NCBI RefSeq assembly: GCF_004323735.1
Contig: NZ_CP036455.1
Coordinates: forward strand, 3,839,101 to 3,903,100
Direction of reading: 5' to 3'
DNA: 64,000 bases
Source of the DNA: Streptomonospora litoralis
GTDB lineage: Bacteria; Actinomycetota; Actinomycetes; Streptosporangiales; Streptosporangiaceae
How positions within the stretch are numbered: the first letter of the stretch is position 1; every line of letters begins with the position of its first letter. The position numbers were made by a program, and so were the translations under genes. The notes beneath the pieces were generated by a model that saw nothing but the letters and a program-made list of their open reading frames with translations, was not told the origin of the DNA and did no database searches. Shown here in pieces: positions 18,887-25,338 of this stretch.

Positions 18887-21391
18887 TCAGCCGCGCAGCA
18901 CCGCGCCGGTCCGCTCGGCTGCCGCGGCGACGGCGGCGTCGCGCGCCCGGGCGATCTCCTCGGTCTCCAGAGTGCGGTCGGGCGCGCGGAACCGCAGCGA
19001 GTAGGCCAGCGAGCGGCGGCCCTCGCCCACCTGTTCGCCGGTGTAGACGTCGAACAGCCGCACGCCCTCCAGCAGTTCGCCCGCGCCCGCGCGCAGCGCC
19101 TGCTCGACGTCGGCGGCCGGGACGCCGTCGGGCACCACCAGCGCCACGTCCTGCAGCGCCACCGGGTAGCCGGAGACGTGCGGGGCGGCGACGGGTTCGC
19201 CGGCGGCCTCGACCGCGTCGAGGTCGACCTCCACGGCGACGGTGCGCTGCGGCAGCCCGTAGGCCGACACCGCCCGCGGATGCAGCTCTCCCGCGTGCCC
19301 GACGAGGCGTTCGGCGCCGCCGATGCGCACGTACAGCGCGGCGCAGCGGCCCGGGTGCCACGGCGCGTAATGGGCGGCGCGCACGATCAGCTCGGCGTTG
19401 GCCGAGCGCGCCACCTCGCGCGCGGTCTCGACCGCGTCGGCCCACGTGGCCGGGCGCCCCGCGCCCTGCCAGCCGCCCGGTTCGCGGTCGCCGGCCAGCA
19501 CGGCGCCCACCCGGCGCGGCTGGTCGGGCAGCGCGCGGGCCACCGACTCGGCCTCATCGGCGGTGGGCCCCCGGTCGACGGCGAGCATGGGCGCTCGCCC
19601 GGGTGCGTCCGGGCGGGGCAGGTAGACCAGGCCGATCTCGTAGAGCGCGACGTCGTTGAAACCGCGCCCGACGTTGCGCACGAGCGTCTTGGACAGCCCC
19701 GGCAGCAGCGTGGTGCGCAGCAGCGGCTCGTCCTCGCTGAGCGGGTTGGCCAGCCGCAGGGCGGTGCGGCGGACGTCGTCGCCGTCGGCTTGCAGGCCGT
19801 CGAGGTCGCGCTGGCCCATGAACGGATAGGCGAGCACCTCGGTGAAGCCGGTGGCGGCCAGGCGGCTGCCGACCGAGCGGCGCAGCCGCTGGCTCGGCGT
19901 CAGGCCCCGCCCCGCCGGCGCGCGCGGCGGAATGGAGGGCACGGCGTCGTAGCCCTCGATTCGGACGACCTCTTCGGCGAGGTCGTTCGGGTCGCCCAGA
20001 TCCGGCCGCCAGGTCGGCGGGGTGACCCGCAGCATGGCCGCCCCCTCCTGCTCGACGGTGCAGCCGACCTGCTGCAGCCGCCGCACCACGCGCTCGCGCC
20101 CGTAGGCCACGCCGGCGATGCGGTCGGGGTGGTCGGCGGCGATGTCGATCGGCTGCGGGGCGGCCGCGGCCTCGTCGGCGATGTCGGTGTATCCCGCATC
20201 GACCGCACCGCCGCCCAGCTCCGCCAGCAGGCGCACCGCGCGCGTGGCGGCCGCCGGCTGCACCGCGGAGTCGACGCCGCGCTCGAAGCGCCGGGAGGAC
20301 TCCGAGGACAACTGGTGGCGCCGCGAGGCCCGCGCGATGTGGGTATCGGCGAAATGCGCCGCCTCGACCAGCACGTCGGTCGAACTCAGGCCGATCTCGG
20401 TGGTCACCCCGCCCATGACGCCGGCCAGGTTGATCGGGCCGGACTCGTCGGTGATGAGGATGTCGTCGGGGTCCAGGGCGCGCTTGACGTGGTCGAGTGT
20501 CTCCAGCTCCTCGCCCGGGCGGGCCAGGCGGACCTCGATGGGTCCACGCAGCGCCGAGCGGTCCCAGGCGTGCAGGGGCTGGCCCAGTTCCATCATCACG
20601 TAATTGGTCACGTCCACCGCGAGCGAGACGGAGCGGACCCCGGTCAGCGCGAGGCGGCGCTTCATCCACAGCGGGGTGGGAGCCTCGGGGTCGAATCCGG
20701 TGACGCCGTGCAGCACGTAGCGCGAGCAGATCGCCGAGTCGGCCACCGCGGCCGGATACCCGTCGCCCGGCGTGCCCGCGGCCTCGACGTCGGCCGGGTC
20801 GCGGAAGTCCGTGCCGTAGGCCGTCGCCGCTTCGCGGGCCACGCCGCGCACCGACAGCGCGTAGCCGCGGTCGGGTGTGACCGCGATGTCGAGTACGTCC
20901 TCGCGCAGCCCGAGCAGCCCGTAGGCGTCGCCGCCGGGTTCGGCGCTGCCGGCGGGCAGCACGATGATGCCGGTGTGGTCCTCCCACAGCTGAAGCTCCG
21001 CGGCCGAGCAGATCATGCCCTCGGAGACCCTGCCGTAGGTCTTGCGCGCGCCGATGGCGAACCCGCCGGGCAGTTCGGCGCCGGGCAGCGCCACCACGAC
21101 GAGGTCGCCTGCGCCGAAGTTGCGGGCGCCGCAGACGATGTGCTGCGGCTCGCCGGTGCCGTTGGCCGCGCCCACGTCGACCCGGCAGTAGCGGATGGGC
21201 TTCTTGAAGCCGGTCAGCTCCTCGATGTCCAGCACCCGCCCCACCGAGACGGGACCGGTGATGTCGGCGCCGACACGGTCGACGGTCTCGACCTCCAGCC
21301 CCAGGGCGATCAGCCGGTCGGCCAGATCGCGGGCGGTGGTGTCCGCGGGAAGGTCGGTGTAATCGGTGAGCCAGGAAACGGGGACGCGCAT
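18887..21391 (-). CDS. pheT: phenylalanyl-tRNA synthetase beta subunit
   Basis: 834-residue beta chain of the (alpha-beta)2 PheRS, which charges tRNA-Phe and edits mischarged Tyr-tRNA. Order: N-terminal [15 protein letters not shown], an EMAP-like tRNA-binding domain (about 40-155, with [21 protein letters not shown]), the B3/B4 editing domain ([21 protein letters not shown]), B5, the synthetase-like core, and a C-terminal anticodon-binding FDX-ACB domain ([16 protein letters not shown] to [14 protein letters not shown]). ATG at 21391 overlaps the pheS stop by one base (TGATG), ensuring stoichiometric synthesis. Length typical; terminator follows. Confidence 0.97.
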
Positions 21392-22509
21392 CAGATCTCC
21401 ATCCCGAAGGCCGAGGTGAACCGGACGTCGCCCTCGACCATGTCGTGCATGTCCTCCACACCGCGGGCGAACATCAGGGTCCGCTCCACGCCCAGGCCGA
21501 AGGCCCAGCCGCTGTAGCGGTCGGTGTCCACTCCCGCCGCCGTGAGCACGCGCGGGTTGACCACGCCGCAGCCGCCGATTTCGATCCAGCCCTCGGAGGA
21601 GCAGGTGCGGCAGGGGTTCGCGGGGTCGCCCACGGACGCGCCCCGGCACACGAAGCACTCCATGTCCACTTCGGCGGAGGGCTCGGTGAAGGGGAAGTAG
21701 GACGGGCGGAACCGTGTGCGCAGCCCGCTGCCGAACATGCTCTGCACGAAGGCGTCGATAGCCCCGCGCAGGTGTCCCATGGTGATGCCCTCGTCCACGA
21801 CCAGCCCTTCCAGCTGGTGGAAGACGGGGGTGTGCGTGGCGTCCAGTTCGTCGGTGCGGAAAGTCTTTCCGGGCGCGACCACGTAGACCGGCAGATCGCG
21901 CTCCAGCAGTGCGCGCACCTGCACCGGTGAGGTGTGGGTACGCAGCACCAGGCCGGACTCGCCGCCGTCGGGCCCCTCGACGAAGAAGGTGTCCTGCATG
22001 GTGCGGGCCGGGTGGTCCGGCAGGAAGTTGAGCGCGTCGAAGTTGAACCACTCCGCCTCGACCTCGGGGCCCTCGGCGATCTCGAAGCCCATGCCGACGA
22101 AGATGTCGGCCATGCGCTCGGCGACCGTGGTCACCGGGTGCCGTCCACCCCGGGGCAGGCGCCCGGTGGGCAGGGTGACGTCGACGGCCTCCTCGACCAG
22201 GACGCGCGCGTCGCGCTCCTCCTCCAACTCGGCCTGGCGCCGCTTCACGGCCTCGTTCACCTCGCGGCGGGCGCCGCCGACACGCTTTCCGGCGTCGGCC
22301 TTGGCCGACGGCGGCAGCGCGCCGATCTCGCGGTTGGCCAGCGCCAGCGGCGAGCGGTCGCCGGCGTGGGCCAGGCGCGCCTCCTTGAGCTCCTCAAGGG
22401 TGGCGGCCGCCTCGATCGCCGCTAGTGCCTCGTCGCGCATCCGGGCGACCTCGTCGGGATGCAGGGGCGTCACTTCGACCGGATCGAACCGGTTATTGGG
22501 TGCAGACAT
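21391..22509 (-). CDS. pheS: phenylalanyl-tRNA synthetase alpha subunit
   Basis: 372-residue catalytic alpha chain of class II PheRS. It has the N-terminal coiled-coil tRNA-binding arm (about residues 20-100), motif 2 in [33 protein letters not shown], and motif 3 in [20 protein letters not shown] at 22509 gives the expected N-terminus [10 protein letters not shown]; the open frame continues upstream in low-quality Arg/Pro sequence. It forms an operon with pheT. A four-cysteine segment ([19 protein letters not shown]) is a normal insertion in some actinobacterial enzymes, possibly zinc-binding. Confidence 0.97.
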
Positions 22510-22633
22510 GGATGTTCGCCTCGCCGCCCGCGCCGCGTGGGCCGGGCGGCCGTCACGGCCCAGCGCGCAGCGTGGGCTCAAGCCGACAGGGACCTCAGAA
22601 GACACCGCCCGCCGCGGCCGCTCCCGAGTACGC

Positions 22634-23719
22634 TCACGCGAACTCGGGGGTGCCGGCGGGCACGGTAAATCGGAACTCCGCACCGCCACTGGGCGCACGC
22701 CCGACCGTGATCTCGCCGCCGTGGGCCTCGATCAGTCCCTTGACTATGAACAGCCCCAGGCCGGTGCCGCCGCGGCGCCGGGTGCGCCAGAAACGCCGGA
22801 AGACACGCGGAACGGCGTCGGGTGCGATGCCCTTGCCTTCGTCGCGTACCGACACAACGGCCCCGTCCTCGTACGGCTCGATCACAATGGTGACAGTACC
22901 AGCGCCGTGCCGCACGCCGTTTTCCAGCAGGTTGGCCATGATCTGGCCGATCTTGTCGGCGTCGAGCCACAGCTCGGGCAGCGGGCCGCGGACGTCGAGG
23001 CGGTAGCGGTCGGCGGGCTCCCCCGCGGCCACCCGCCCGGCGACCAGCGTGCGCGCGAGCTCGGCGAGGTCGACGACCTGCTTGCGGATCTCGACCCGGC
23101 CCGACTCGATGCGCGAGACGCTCAGCAGTTCGGTGATGAGCCGGGTGACGCGGTCGGCGTCGGCGTTGACCGTCTCCAGCATGAACATCTTCTGCTTGTC
23201 GGTGAGCCGCTCCCATTTGCCCAGCAGCGTGGCCGTGAATCCCTTGACGCTGGTCAGCGGCGAGCGGAGTTCGTGGGCGACGGTCGAGACGAGGTCGGCG
23301 CGGCTGCGTTCGCCCCGGGCGCGGTGCGAGGCGTCGCGCAGCGTGACGACCAGCCGGTCCACCTGGGCGCGGGGCTCGGTGCGCACGTAGCGCGCCGCCA
23401 CCAGGATCTCGCGGCCGTCGGCCAGAAACAGCGGGCGCTCGGGCTGGCGGGTGCGGGTGCGCAGTCCGCCGTAGGGGTCGCTGCACTTCCACCAGTCGCG
23501 CCCGTCGGTGTCGTGCAGCGGCAGCACGTCGCGGAAGTCGCGGCCGAGCGCATTCGCGGCGGAAACCCGCGAGAGCCGGGCGGCCATGCGGTTGAACGTC
23601 ACTACGCGGCCGTCGCCGTCGGCGACGACGACACCGTCGGGAAGGTCGTCGGCAGCGAGCGCGGGAGCCGCGTCCGACGCGCCCGCGCCGCTGTGCTCCG
23701 CTGGTTGGTCGCCGCCCAC
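22634..23719 (-). CDS. orphan PAS-containing sensor histidine kinase
   Basis: 361-residue cytoplasmic kinase without membrane segments. A PAS domain (about 25-130, GVVVADGDGRVVTFNRMAARL) precedes a HisKA region with the phosphorylated histidine in STVAHELRSPLTSVKGF (~152) and an HATPase domain with N box NLLENGVRHGAG, G1 RDEGKGIAP and G2 GGTGLGLFIVKGL. GTG start at 23719 has GGAGG five bases upstream. No response regulator is adjacent. It sits between trmH and pheS, where other actinomycetes also tend to carry a kinase. Its 5' leader contains a solitary CRISPR-repeat-like element (23762-23790), which is unusual. Confidence 0.88.
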   Translation of the reverse strand: MGGDQPAEHSGAGASDAAPALAADDLPDGVVVADGDGRVVTFNRMAARLSRVSAANALGRDFRDVLPLHDTDGRDWWKCSDPYGGLRTRTRQPERPLFLADGREILVAARYVRTEPRAQVDRLVVTLRDASHRARGERSRADLVSTVAHELRSPLTSVKGFTATLLGKWERLTDKQKMFMLETVNADADRVTRLITELLSVSRIESGRVEIRKQVVDLAELARTLVAGRVAAGEPADRYRLDVRGPLPELWLDADKIGQIMANLLENGVRHGAGTVTIVIEPYEDGAVVSVRDEGKGIAPDAVPRVFRRFWRTRRRGGTGLGLFIVKGLIEAHGGEITVGRAPSGGAEFRFTVPAGTPEFA

Positions 23720-23761
23720 GACCGCCTCCCCACGCCCTCATACGACCGCACCCGCCGGATC

Positions 23762-23790
23762 GGGACCATCCCCGCGGTCGCGGGGAGCAC
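23762..23790 (-). repeat. solitary type I-E CRISPR-repeat-like sequence
   Basis: A 29-base sequence that on the minus strand begins GTGCTCCCCGCG and ends CGCGGGGATGGTCCC, with a GC-rich hairpin in the middle. Length, flanks and stem match, from memory, the type I-E repeats common in actinobacteria. No second copy occurs one repeat-spacer unit (about 61 bases) away on either side, and no cas gene is present, so this is not an array. It lies 42 bases upstream of the histidine kinase start and would be in its mRNA leader. Confidence 0.6.
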
Positions 23791-23964
23791 AAACGTTTCG
23801 CCGACGACCCGTGGAGATGAGAGCTTGAGCGTATCGGCAAGACGGGGGATGCGGGCAACCCGCAGAACGCGGGGAAAACCCGGGCATACGCCGGAAAGCC
23901 CGGCGCAGGGGCGTCTCACCAGGCGTCCGGCACCGCGCGGCGGCCCTACCCGTTTTGCGGGTGG

Positions 23965-24816
23965 TTACGCGTCTGCCGCATAGCGAGCGGCTCGGCCTGG
24001 TGTACCAGCTTCGGTCCGCTGCTGGCGCGCGGTGGTGTACAGGCATACGGCAGCGGCAGTCGCCAGATTCAGGCTTTCAGCCGCGCCGTAAATGGGGACG
24101 GCGACCGCGCCGTCGGTGAGCGCGACGGTCTCCTCCGGCAGCCCCCACGCCTCGTTGCCGAAGACCCAGCCCACGCGGCCGTCGAGGCCGCCGTCGTCGG
24201 CGACGGCGTGCAGGTCGCGCTCCCCGCTTCCGTCGGCGGCGAGGATCCGGGCGCCGGCGTCGCGCAGACGGGCGAGTGCGTCGGCGACCGGCACGCCCAC
24301 GACGACGGGCAGGTGGAACAGGCTGCCCGCCGAGGCACGCACGCATTTGCCGTTGTAGGGGTCGACCGAGGCGTCGGTGAACACGACCGCGTCGGCGCCG
24401 GCCGCGTCGGCCGTGCGCACGACGGTTCCGGCGTTGCCGGGATCGCGCACGTGGGAGAGTACGGCGACCAGTCGGGCGGGGCCGAGGCCGCCGAGCGGCA
24501 CGTCGACGAAGTCGCACACGGCCAGCACCCCTTGGGGGGTGACCGTCTGCGCCAGTTCGGCCATGACCTCCAGGGTGACCCGGTGGACGGCCGCGCCGCG
24601 CCGCTCGGCGGCCTCGATCAGCTCCGCGTGGCGCTGGGCGGCATCGGCGGTGGTGAACAGTTCGTGCACCCGCCCCGGTGCCGCCAGCGCCTCGCGTACG
24701 GCTTGGGGCCCCTCGACCAGGAACCGGCGCTCACGCTGGCGGAATGCGCGCTTGGCGAGCCGACGAGCCCCCTTGATGCGGGGGGACCTGGTGCTTGTGA
24801 ACTCGTGGCTCGCCAT
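23965..24816 (-). CDS. TrmH-family (SpoU) RNA 2'-O-methyltransferase
   Basis: 283-residue SPOUT methyltransferase that transfers a methyl group from S-adenosylmethionine to a ribose 2'-OH in rRNA or tRNA. An N-terminal substrate-binding domain (FRQRERRFLVEGPQAVREAL) is followed by the knotted catalytic domain with motif 1 in SHVRDPGNAGTVVRTADAAG, motif 2 in WVFGNEAWGLP and motif 3 in PIYGAAESLNLATAAAVCLY. ATG at 24816. It lies 29 bases after rplT, so it is probably the last gene of infC-rpmI-rplT-trmH, an actinobacterial arrangement. The target nucleotide cannot be inferred. Confidence 0.9.
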   Translation of the reverse strand: MASHEFTSTRSPRIKGARRLAKRAFRQRERRFLVEGPQAVREALAAPGRVHELFTTADAAQRHAELIEAAERRGAAVHRVTLEVMAELAQTVTPQGVLAVCDFVDVPLGGLGPARLVAVLSHVRDPGNAGTVVRTADAAGADAVVFTDASVDPYNGKCVRASAGSLFHLPVVVGVPVADALARLRDAGARILAADGSGERDLHAVADDGGLDGRVGWVFGNEAWGLPEETVALTDGAVAVPIYGAAESLNLATAAAVCLYTTARQQRTEAGTPGRAARYAADA

Positions 24817-24845
24817 CGCGTAGTGCCGGTCTGCTCCCGGGCCGC

Positions 24846-25229
24846 TCAGGCCGCGGTCTTCTGCTGCACGTCGGTGGGCAGCGCGCCCTTGGCGGTCTCG
24901 ACGAGGGAGGCGAAGGTCGCCTCGTCGTTGACGGCCATGTCGGCGAGCATCCGGCGGTCGACCTCGACGCCGGCGAGCTTGAGACCCTGCATGAACCGGT
25001 TGTAGGTCAGGCCGTTGGCGCGGGCACCGGCGTTGATGCGCTGGATCCACAGCTTGCGGAACTCCCCCTTGCGATCCTTGCGGTCGCGGTAGGAGTAGGT
25101 CATCGAGTGGAGCATCTGCTCCTTGGCCTTGCGGTACAGGCGCGAACGCTGCCCGCGGTAGCCCTTGGCCCGCTCTAGGACGACCCGGCGCTTCTTCTTG
25201 GCGTTGAGAGCCCGCTTCACGCGTGCCAC
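24846..25229 (-). CDS. rplT: 50S ribosomal protein L20
   Basis: 127-residue L20, an early-assembly protein binding 23S rRNA. The sequence shows the basic N-terminal extension ([14 protein letters not shown]), [15 protein letters not shown] and the conserved [20 protein letters not shown] at 25229 is supported by AAGGGAG upstream. Third gene of the infC operon, 109 bases after rpmI. Confidence 0.98.
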
Positions 25230-25338
25230 TGTGACTCCCTTGTGGGTAGGCGTCGGTATCCGCCGCGGTCCCGGCCGGATCAGGGCACACAGGCACCCTG
25301 CGGAGGGATGGACGGATCGGACGGAATGGAATTCGGCC

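Follow-up and report, generated by a model that had tools for sequence, protein, structure and literature searches.

A solitary type I-E CRISPR repeat coincides with the absence of a conserved promoter-like element in the leader of an orphan histidine kinase gene of Streptomonospora litoralis

The stretch of DNA analysed here, referred to as the window, comprises 64,000 nucleotides of the Streptomonospora litoralis genome (C1:3839101-3903100). Within it, the minus strand carries a 29-nt solitary type I-E CRISPR repeat, GTGCTCCCCGCGACCGCGGGGATGGTCCC (23790-23762), ahead of a histidine kinase gene. The annotation of the locus is provided in Table 1. The kinase gene is flanked by genes for a SpoU-type RNA methyltransferase (upstream) and for PheS (downstream), so that no response regulator adjoins it; this, together with its PAS, HisKA and HATPase domains, bears out its earlier description as an orphan PAS histidine kinase. 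It must be noted that all NCBIfam matches of the methyltransferase were below the cut-off, and that the coordinates given for pheS are those of the open frame, its true start lying near 22.5 kb as judged by eye. By gene order alone, we take the kinase locus to be the place held by the orphan kinase OhkA (SCO1596) in Streptomyces. The predicted distance of 42 bases between the repeat and the kinase start codon was exact (23761-23720, with the GTG at 23719).

Table 1. Features of the kinase locus (positions in the window).
Feature	Position	Strand	Remarks
pheS (phenylalanine-tRNA ligase alpha), open frame	21391..22698	-	TIGR00468, 281.6 bits, above cut-off
Orphan PAS histidine kinase, 361 aa, OhkA-like by position	22634..23719	-	PAS, HisKA and HATPase domains
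Shine-Dalgarno site of the kinase gene, GGGGAGG	23725..23731	-	Conserved in five congeners
Solitary type I-E repeat, loop ACC	23762..23790	-	Matches the arrays of the same genome
Repeat hairpin	23769..23786	-	Fold of -14.3 kcal/mol
Repeat 5' arm, CTCCCCGCG	23779..23787	-	Complementary to CGTGGGGAG over the Shine-Dalgarno site
Segment of ~37 bp in the place of ~73 bp of G004, SigB-like P2 element included	23762..23798	-	Borders set by eye from alignments
Promoter-like element P1, TTGCCC - 19 - TACGCT	23828..23858	-	Common to congeners; putative promoter
SpoU-type RNA methyltransferase, open frame as listed	23965..25296	-	Above Pfam cut-off

The whole genome (5,814,190 bp, two contigs) was searched for the repeat, any loop bases and at most three mismatches being allowed. 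On one strand there were 85 matches, in two clusters from C1:15952 to C1:30498, and the opposite strand gave a single match, which was the window site. In the account of S. litoralis M2 in PMC8448680, where it is named as the type strain and beach sand is given as its source, three CRISPRs are counted. The array repeat of this genome is GTGCTCCCCGCGCACGCGGGGATGGTCCC, and the window copy departs from it in the loop alone (ACC vs. CAC). The 26 non-loop positions of the window repeat are all identical to those of 75 of the 85 array repeats, the remainder having one mismatch (eight repeats) or three (two repeats) outside the loop. The array repeat and the window repeat, each folded alone, had the same hairpin energy (-14.3 kcal/mol), which counts in favor of an ectopic repeat. 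Sequence, length, stem, 3' handle and hairpin are thus those of the cognate array repeat, in line with the type I-E identity proposed earlier from length, hairpin and flanks, while the window copy is unlike the array repeats in being single, in lacking leader and spacer, and in its loop. No Rfam match was obtained across the window at gathering scores.

The original prediction had left open that the hairpin arose by chance. A weaker look-alike does exist in a congener, where an isolated match of 23 of 26 positions lies in a long open frame (L065) and is probably fortuitous. However, the agreement of the window site with the arrays of its own genome already refutes this explanation, to which we give a practically negligible probability: the next best score in the window was 19 of 26, and no other window site had three or fewer mismatches at the 26 non-loop positions, with none expected from 100 shuffles of the window.

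Genes cas3, cse1, cas7, cas5, cas6e and cas1 (cas1e) were recognized by Pfam and NCBIfam between and beside the arrays; cas2 and cse2 were left out of this recognition. The check for a type I-E system with cas6e was therefore positive. The sole cas6e found in the genome (C1:24323-25024) lies outside the window, far from the repeat. Within the genus, cas6e was found in five of six genomes (own included), the one in which it was not found being that of G001, which is 97% complete. Given type I-E genes and array repeats that match, the site has withstood two of the three refutations proposed for it, namely that the genome has no such system and that its array repeats differ strongly.

The repeat is solitary, as had been noted. 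There was no second copy near +/-61 on the same strand within 300 bases, so there is no array-type spacing; the best other score in that range was 17 of 26, at -89, and this piece is native sequence also present in the congeners. A remnant of an array was ruled out, as there is neither a leader nor a second repeat and the flanks matched the ends of the 83 array spacers over at most four bases (left) and six bases (right). No array leader precedes the repeat, the upstream sequence being the kinase leader common to congeners with only about 8 bp that are new.

The third refutation proposed was absence of the sequence from this locus in close relatives. Kinase orthologs were taken from two collections. 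In the first, 54 of the 60 genomes, the own one among them, had a match, and of these loci the best 30 were taken; in the second, 80 of 333 relatives were among the matches listed. These 110 whole loci, own included, in which some species occur in both sets and two loci (L094 and L133) have less than 60 bp upstream of the match, were scanned for the repeat. The own locus scored 26 of 26 and the repeat was absent from the 109 others (best 30 of the first collection and 80 of 333 of the second), of which one scored 21 and the rest 19 or less. Conservation upstream of the orthologous kinase, suggested earlier as a check, was accordingly lacking in all five congeners, each of which has a kinase match of 88-91% identity, and in the other orthologs scanned. 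A conserved regulatory role is therefore unsupported. Moreover, the exact repeat with the ACC loop occurred in one of 341 family genomes, which is its own, so that no source for this loop was found in the other 340, nor in genome_contigs or viral_contigs, from which records near the own genome may have been excluded. The repeat is thus genuine, of the host's own kind, and seen in one lineage only. Several loop variants exist among the repeats of the genus, which also counts in favor of an ectopic repeat.

In the alignment of the six congeneric leaders (own included), homology breaks off about 8-12 bases ahead of the repeat and resumes right after it, a pattern of replacement and not of plain insertion. 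In this interval, the 37 bp of S. litoralis that include the repeat correspond to about 73 bp in the closest congener, G004, which there carries GCGTAG..GCGGGTAATGATC. Identity to G004 was 90/97 in the upstream flank, 33/42 over the 42 bases after the repeat and 50/60 over the first 60 coding bases. A sequence similarity search with 131 bp of the leader returned only Streptomyces records, two of one phage and 73 of plasmids. The distance from P1 to the start codon is 108 bases here vs. 140-143 in five congeners, whose leaders after P1 are 32-35 bp longer and hold a SigB-like element, GCGTAG-N14-GGGTAA, which we call P2. In these five, the element (GCGTA(G/A)-N14-GGGTAA) has the SigB-type arrangement of a GNNT-type -35, 12-14 nt and a GGGTAA-type -10. 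In the summary of such promoters in PMC8346170, the B. subtilis form is GTTTAA-N12-14-GGG(A/T)A(A/T) and osmotic-stress promoters of S. coelicolor have a less conserved GNNT. Both P1 and P2 are putative promoters.

The comparison was extended to 18 leaders anchored by a recognizable start motif, 15 with P1 and three without it, with a loose P2 pattern. An element of this loose type lay ahead of the start, and downstream of P1 in leaders with P1, in 17 of the 18, the sole exception being S. litoralis; in the three leaders without P1 its position can only be stated as upstream of the start. The 18 seem to include two pairs from one species or from closely related ones; L086 has a leader identical to that of L027, and L078 has the same P2 as L034. 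Of 37 Nocardiopsidaceae leaders, 19 had no start anchor and were left out of this comparison; each of these has a match to the strict P2 pattern in the 500 bp upstream. The strict pattern was present in 34 of 108 full leaders vs. five of 2160 shuffled leaders, the shuffles keeping single-base composition only. These 34 include matches upstream of P1, in some relatives as well as in the own leader, where one lies at -251. Therefore, the own leader is without a strict P2 only after P1 and not throughout. With this limit, the leader with the repeat lacks a conserved promoter-like element downstream of P1, and a replacement event that brought the repeat and removed P2 would account for the alignment.

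Two further traits of these leaders were observed. Across Nocardiopsidaceae, leaders of the OhkA-like kinase share a conserved SigB-like element, GCGTA..GGGTA (e.g., L025-L029, L031-L033, L076, L077, L106). In addition, pairing is possible in several congeners between GGTCGCCGGCG of the P1 leader (GGTCGTCGGCG in S. litoralis) and GGCGGCGACC, which lies immediately behind the start codon. This long-range pairing, read by eye, spans 23707-23810 of the window (minus strand) and the congener leaders, and may represent a conserved leader structure.

The explanation that we prefer, and to which we give about an even chance, is that an ectopic, leaderless repeat of the genome's own type replaced about 73 bp of the kinase leader, P2 included, and that the transcript from P1 thereby received a Cas6e-type site. 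In the S. litoralis lineage, an illegitimate replacement would have cost the gene its SigB-like P2, and transcription would then start from the upstream P1 and run through the repeat, so that the kinase transcript would have a leader of about 100 nt containing the Cas6e-type hairpin. In type I-E systems, the cut by Cas6e falls at the 3' base of the repeat hairpin. If the hairpin is folded, the enzyme would cut between 23770 and 23769, 50 nt before the GTG, and leave ATGGTCCC at the 5' end of a 50-nt leader. Such a site would be a side effect of the place where the repeat landed and not an evolved guide RNA. We consider Cas6e cleavage of the kinase mRNA to be possible and likely enough to be tested. 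In this regard, a chromosomal regulator gene whose mRNA leader holds an intact single repeat, and whose genome also encodes the matching Cas6e, would offer a natural test of whether this enzyme cuts ordinary mRNAs and of whether CRISPR repeats can rewire host genes. No report of a CRISPR repeat in an mRNA leader, or of an mRNA cut by Cas6e, was found in the titles and abstract openings of the open-access literature among the matches listed.

It must be considered that the predicted folds do not uniformly offer the hairpin. In the full leader, CTCCCCGCG of the repeat pairs with CGTGGGGAG over the Shine-Dalgarno site, and the predicted probability of the repeat hairpin was at most 0.11 for five 5' ends at 23830-23810, vs. 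0.56-0.59 for 5' ends at 23800 and 23791. With another fold favored by prediction in the full leader, Cas6e may miss the hairpin unless it acts during transcription. This disfavoring of the hairpin for most 5' ends tried, and the finding of the exact copy in one genome only, would suit an inert relic, in which the same ectopic repeat and the same promoter loss are followed by no cutting in the cell, or by cutting of no effect. We regard this outcome as a serious one, though with rather less than an even chance. Its weak point is that the stem and the 3' handle are intact, both differences from the arrays falling in the loop; however, intactness is a weak argument, because it was through being intact that the site was noticed.

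The same pairing could also be read as a Cas6e-dependent translational switch, in which the 5' arm of the repeat would mask the Shine-Dalgarno site in the P1 leader and cleavage would unmask it. With the masking arm removed, the leader would be short and open, as in the P2 transcript of the relatives, and kinase output would follow the CRISPR processing capacity of the cell. The predicted accessibility of the Shine-Dalgarno site agrees with this model, being 0.03-0.11 for the five 5' ends at 23830-23810, 0.44-0.47 for those at 23800 and 23791, and 0.47 for the cut leader. For the P1 leader itself it was 0.036, rising to 0.23 without the repeat and staying at 0.034 with the array repeat in its place. 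In the five congeners, assuming that transcripts start 7 bases after each element, predicted accessibility was 0.56-0.73 in the P2 leaders and 0.11-0.53 in the P1 leaders. Nevertheless, 40 of 300 shuffled repeats (29-mers) masked the site as well as the observed one. The CTCCCC of the repeat is complementary to every GGGGAG site, and the site in question is older than the repeat; the P1 leader of one congener (L029) is also masked (0.11) without any repeat; and a single genome is concerned. The switch is conceivable but, given the 40 shuffles that reach the observed value, not supported beyond chance, and we consider it improbable; as an evolved feature it was dropped on the same count. The probability becomes even smaller for the fuller version, in which the repeat replaced a stress-type promoter of an OhkA-like global regulator and processing by Cas6e now yields a short translatable mRNA instead of that of P2. 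If true, it would give a CRISPR RNA-processing enzyme control over a regulator of development and antibiotics.

The ectopic CRISPR repeats described in PMC9458426 and PMC10651486 serve as guides (CreA and scaRNA; PMC9458426) or as decoys (Racr; PMC10651486). The possibility that a crRNA-like RNA arises at the site had been raised, and in this case the handle and the bases downstream of it would direct Cascade to a promoter, as CreA does. The handle ATGGTCCC is intact, and PMC9458426 presents CreA RNAs that derive from a single ectopic repeat or from a pair of them. Matches to the 32 bases that follow the repeat were sought in the window, the cas region (L022) and L023, and 30 shuffled guides were run on the window alone. 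The best window match, the own site aside, had a total of 21 and a seed of 10, which is no better than the shuffles (best totals 20-23, best seeds 5-12). Genome-wide, AWG followed by GATCCNGCGGG (guide positions 1-5 and 7-11) had one match, located in a terminator-like hairpin, and about 0.9 were expected by a hand estimate from base composition with the PAM assumed to be AAG or ATG throughout the genome. A PAM-flanked seed match in a promoter, as expected of a CreA guide, was not found in the window, the cas region, L023 or by the genome-wide pattern. The guide was thus not borne out and is most unlikely. Compared with the CreA of CreTA as presented in PMC8501985 and PMC9458426, the window site is alike in being a repeat outside arrays, but no second repeat and no PAM-backed seed match to a promoter were found for it, it is not next to the cas genes, and it is intact whereas the CreA repeats are degenerate. 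The scaRNA of Francisella, as cited in PMC9458426, is comparable as an ectopic repeat that takes part in controlling host genes, but it belongs to a Cas9 system with another mechanism.

Decoys are the other precedent. Solitary repeat units are known from phages (PMC10651486), and an RNA anti-CRISPR left by a phage or plasmid could have the form seen here, a solitary repeat matching the CRISPR type of the host. A Streptomyces phage has one hairpin with 27 of 29 matching bases, ACC loop included, when read on the strand not used by the phage genes; counted over the non-loop positions, its agreement is only 22 of 26. Unlike the Racrs of phages in PMC10651486, the window site is in a housekeeping locus and not on a mobile element; it lies between housekeeping genes with native flanks, which disfavors a phage insertion, and viral contigs contained no exact copy of the repeat, with the loop fixed or open. 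The probability of this origin is accordingly remote.

An ectopic repeat in place of a promoter-like element remains our preferred explanation. Isolated or few-unit repeats with varied loops were also present in G001, G002, G003 and G005. Among 16 loci of this kind (L055-L070), nine have an array-leader-like end ahead of the first repeat, most clearly L064 and L066-L068; the motif used for this end is loose and also flags an inner repeat in L058. The window site resembles the single repeats of G002 and G005 in being an isolated copy of the same repeat family. It differs in that several of those follow an array-leader-like end, whereas it has no such leader and lies inside the native leader of a gene. 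In G004, 116 repeat matches were counted.

Some of these loci deserve mention in their own right. The single type I-E repeats of G002 (L055, L056, L057 and L061) and G005 (L067 and L068) are apparently one-repeat CRISPR loci, several of them behind an array-leader-like sequence by the loose motif, L057 being flagged by eye only. In G003, many small groups of repeats are spread over many contigs, several with a loop variant of their own (TAC, CAT, ACAC, ACGC and others). Finally, the Streptomyces phage Cumberbatch carries six diverged hairpins resembling type I-E repeats (MT451982.1 34596-34960; L156:1196-1560, minus strand), each agreeing at 20-22 of 26 positions. They are in gene orientation at steps of 61, 60, 58, 49 and 51 bp, in the intergenic region before gp55. 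At least 80% of this stretch is covered at no less than 95% identity in all 16 matching phage records, all of the same host strain. From its sequence, the tandem looks like mimics of CRISPR repeats, perhaps a multi-unit RNA anti-CRISPR.
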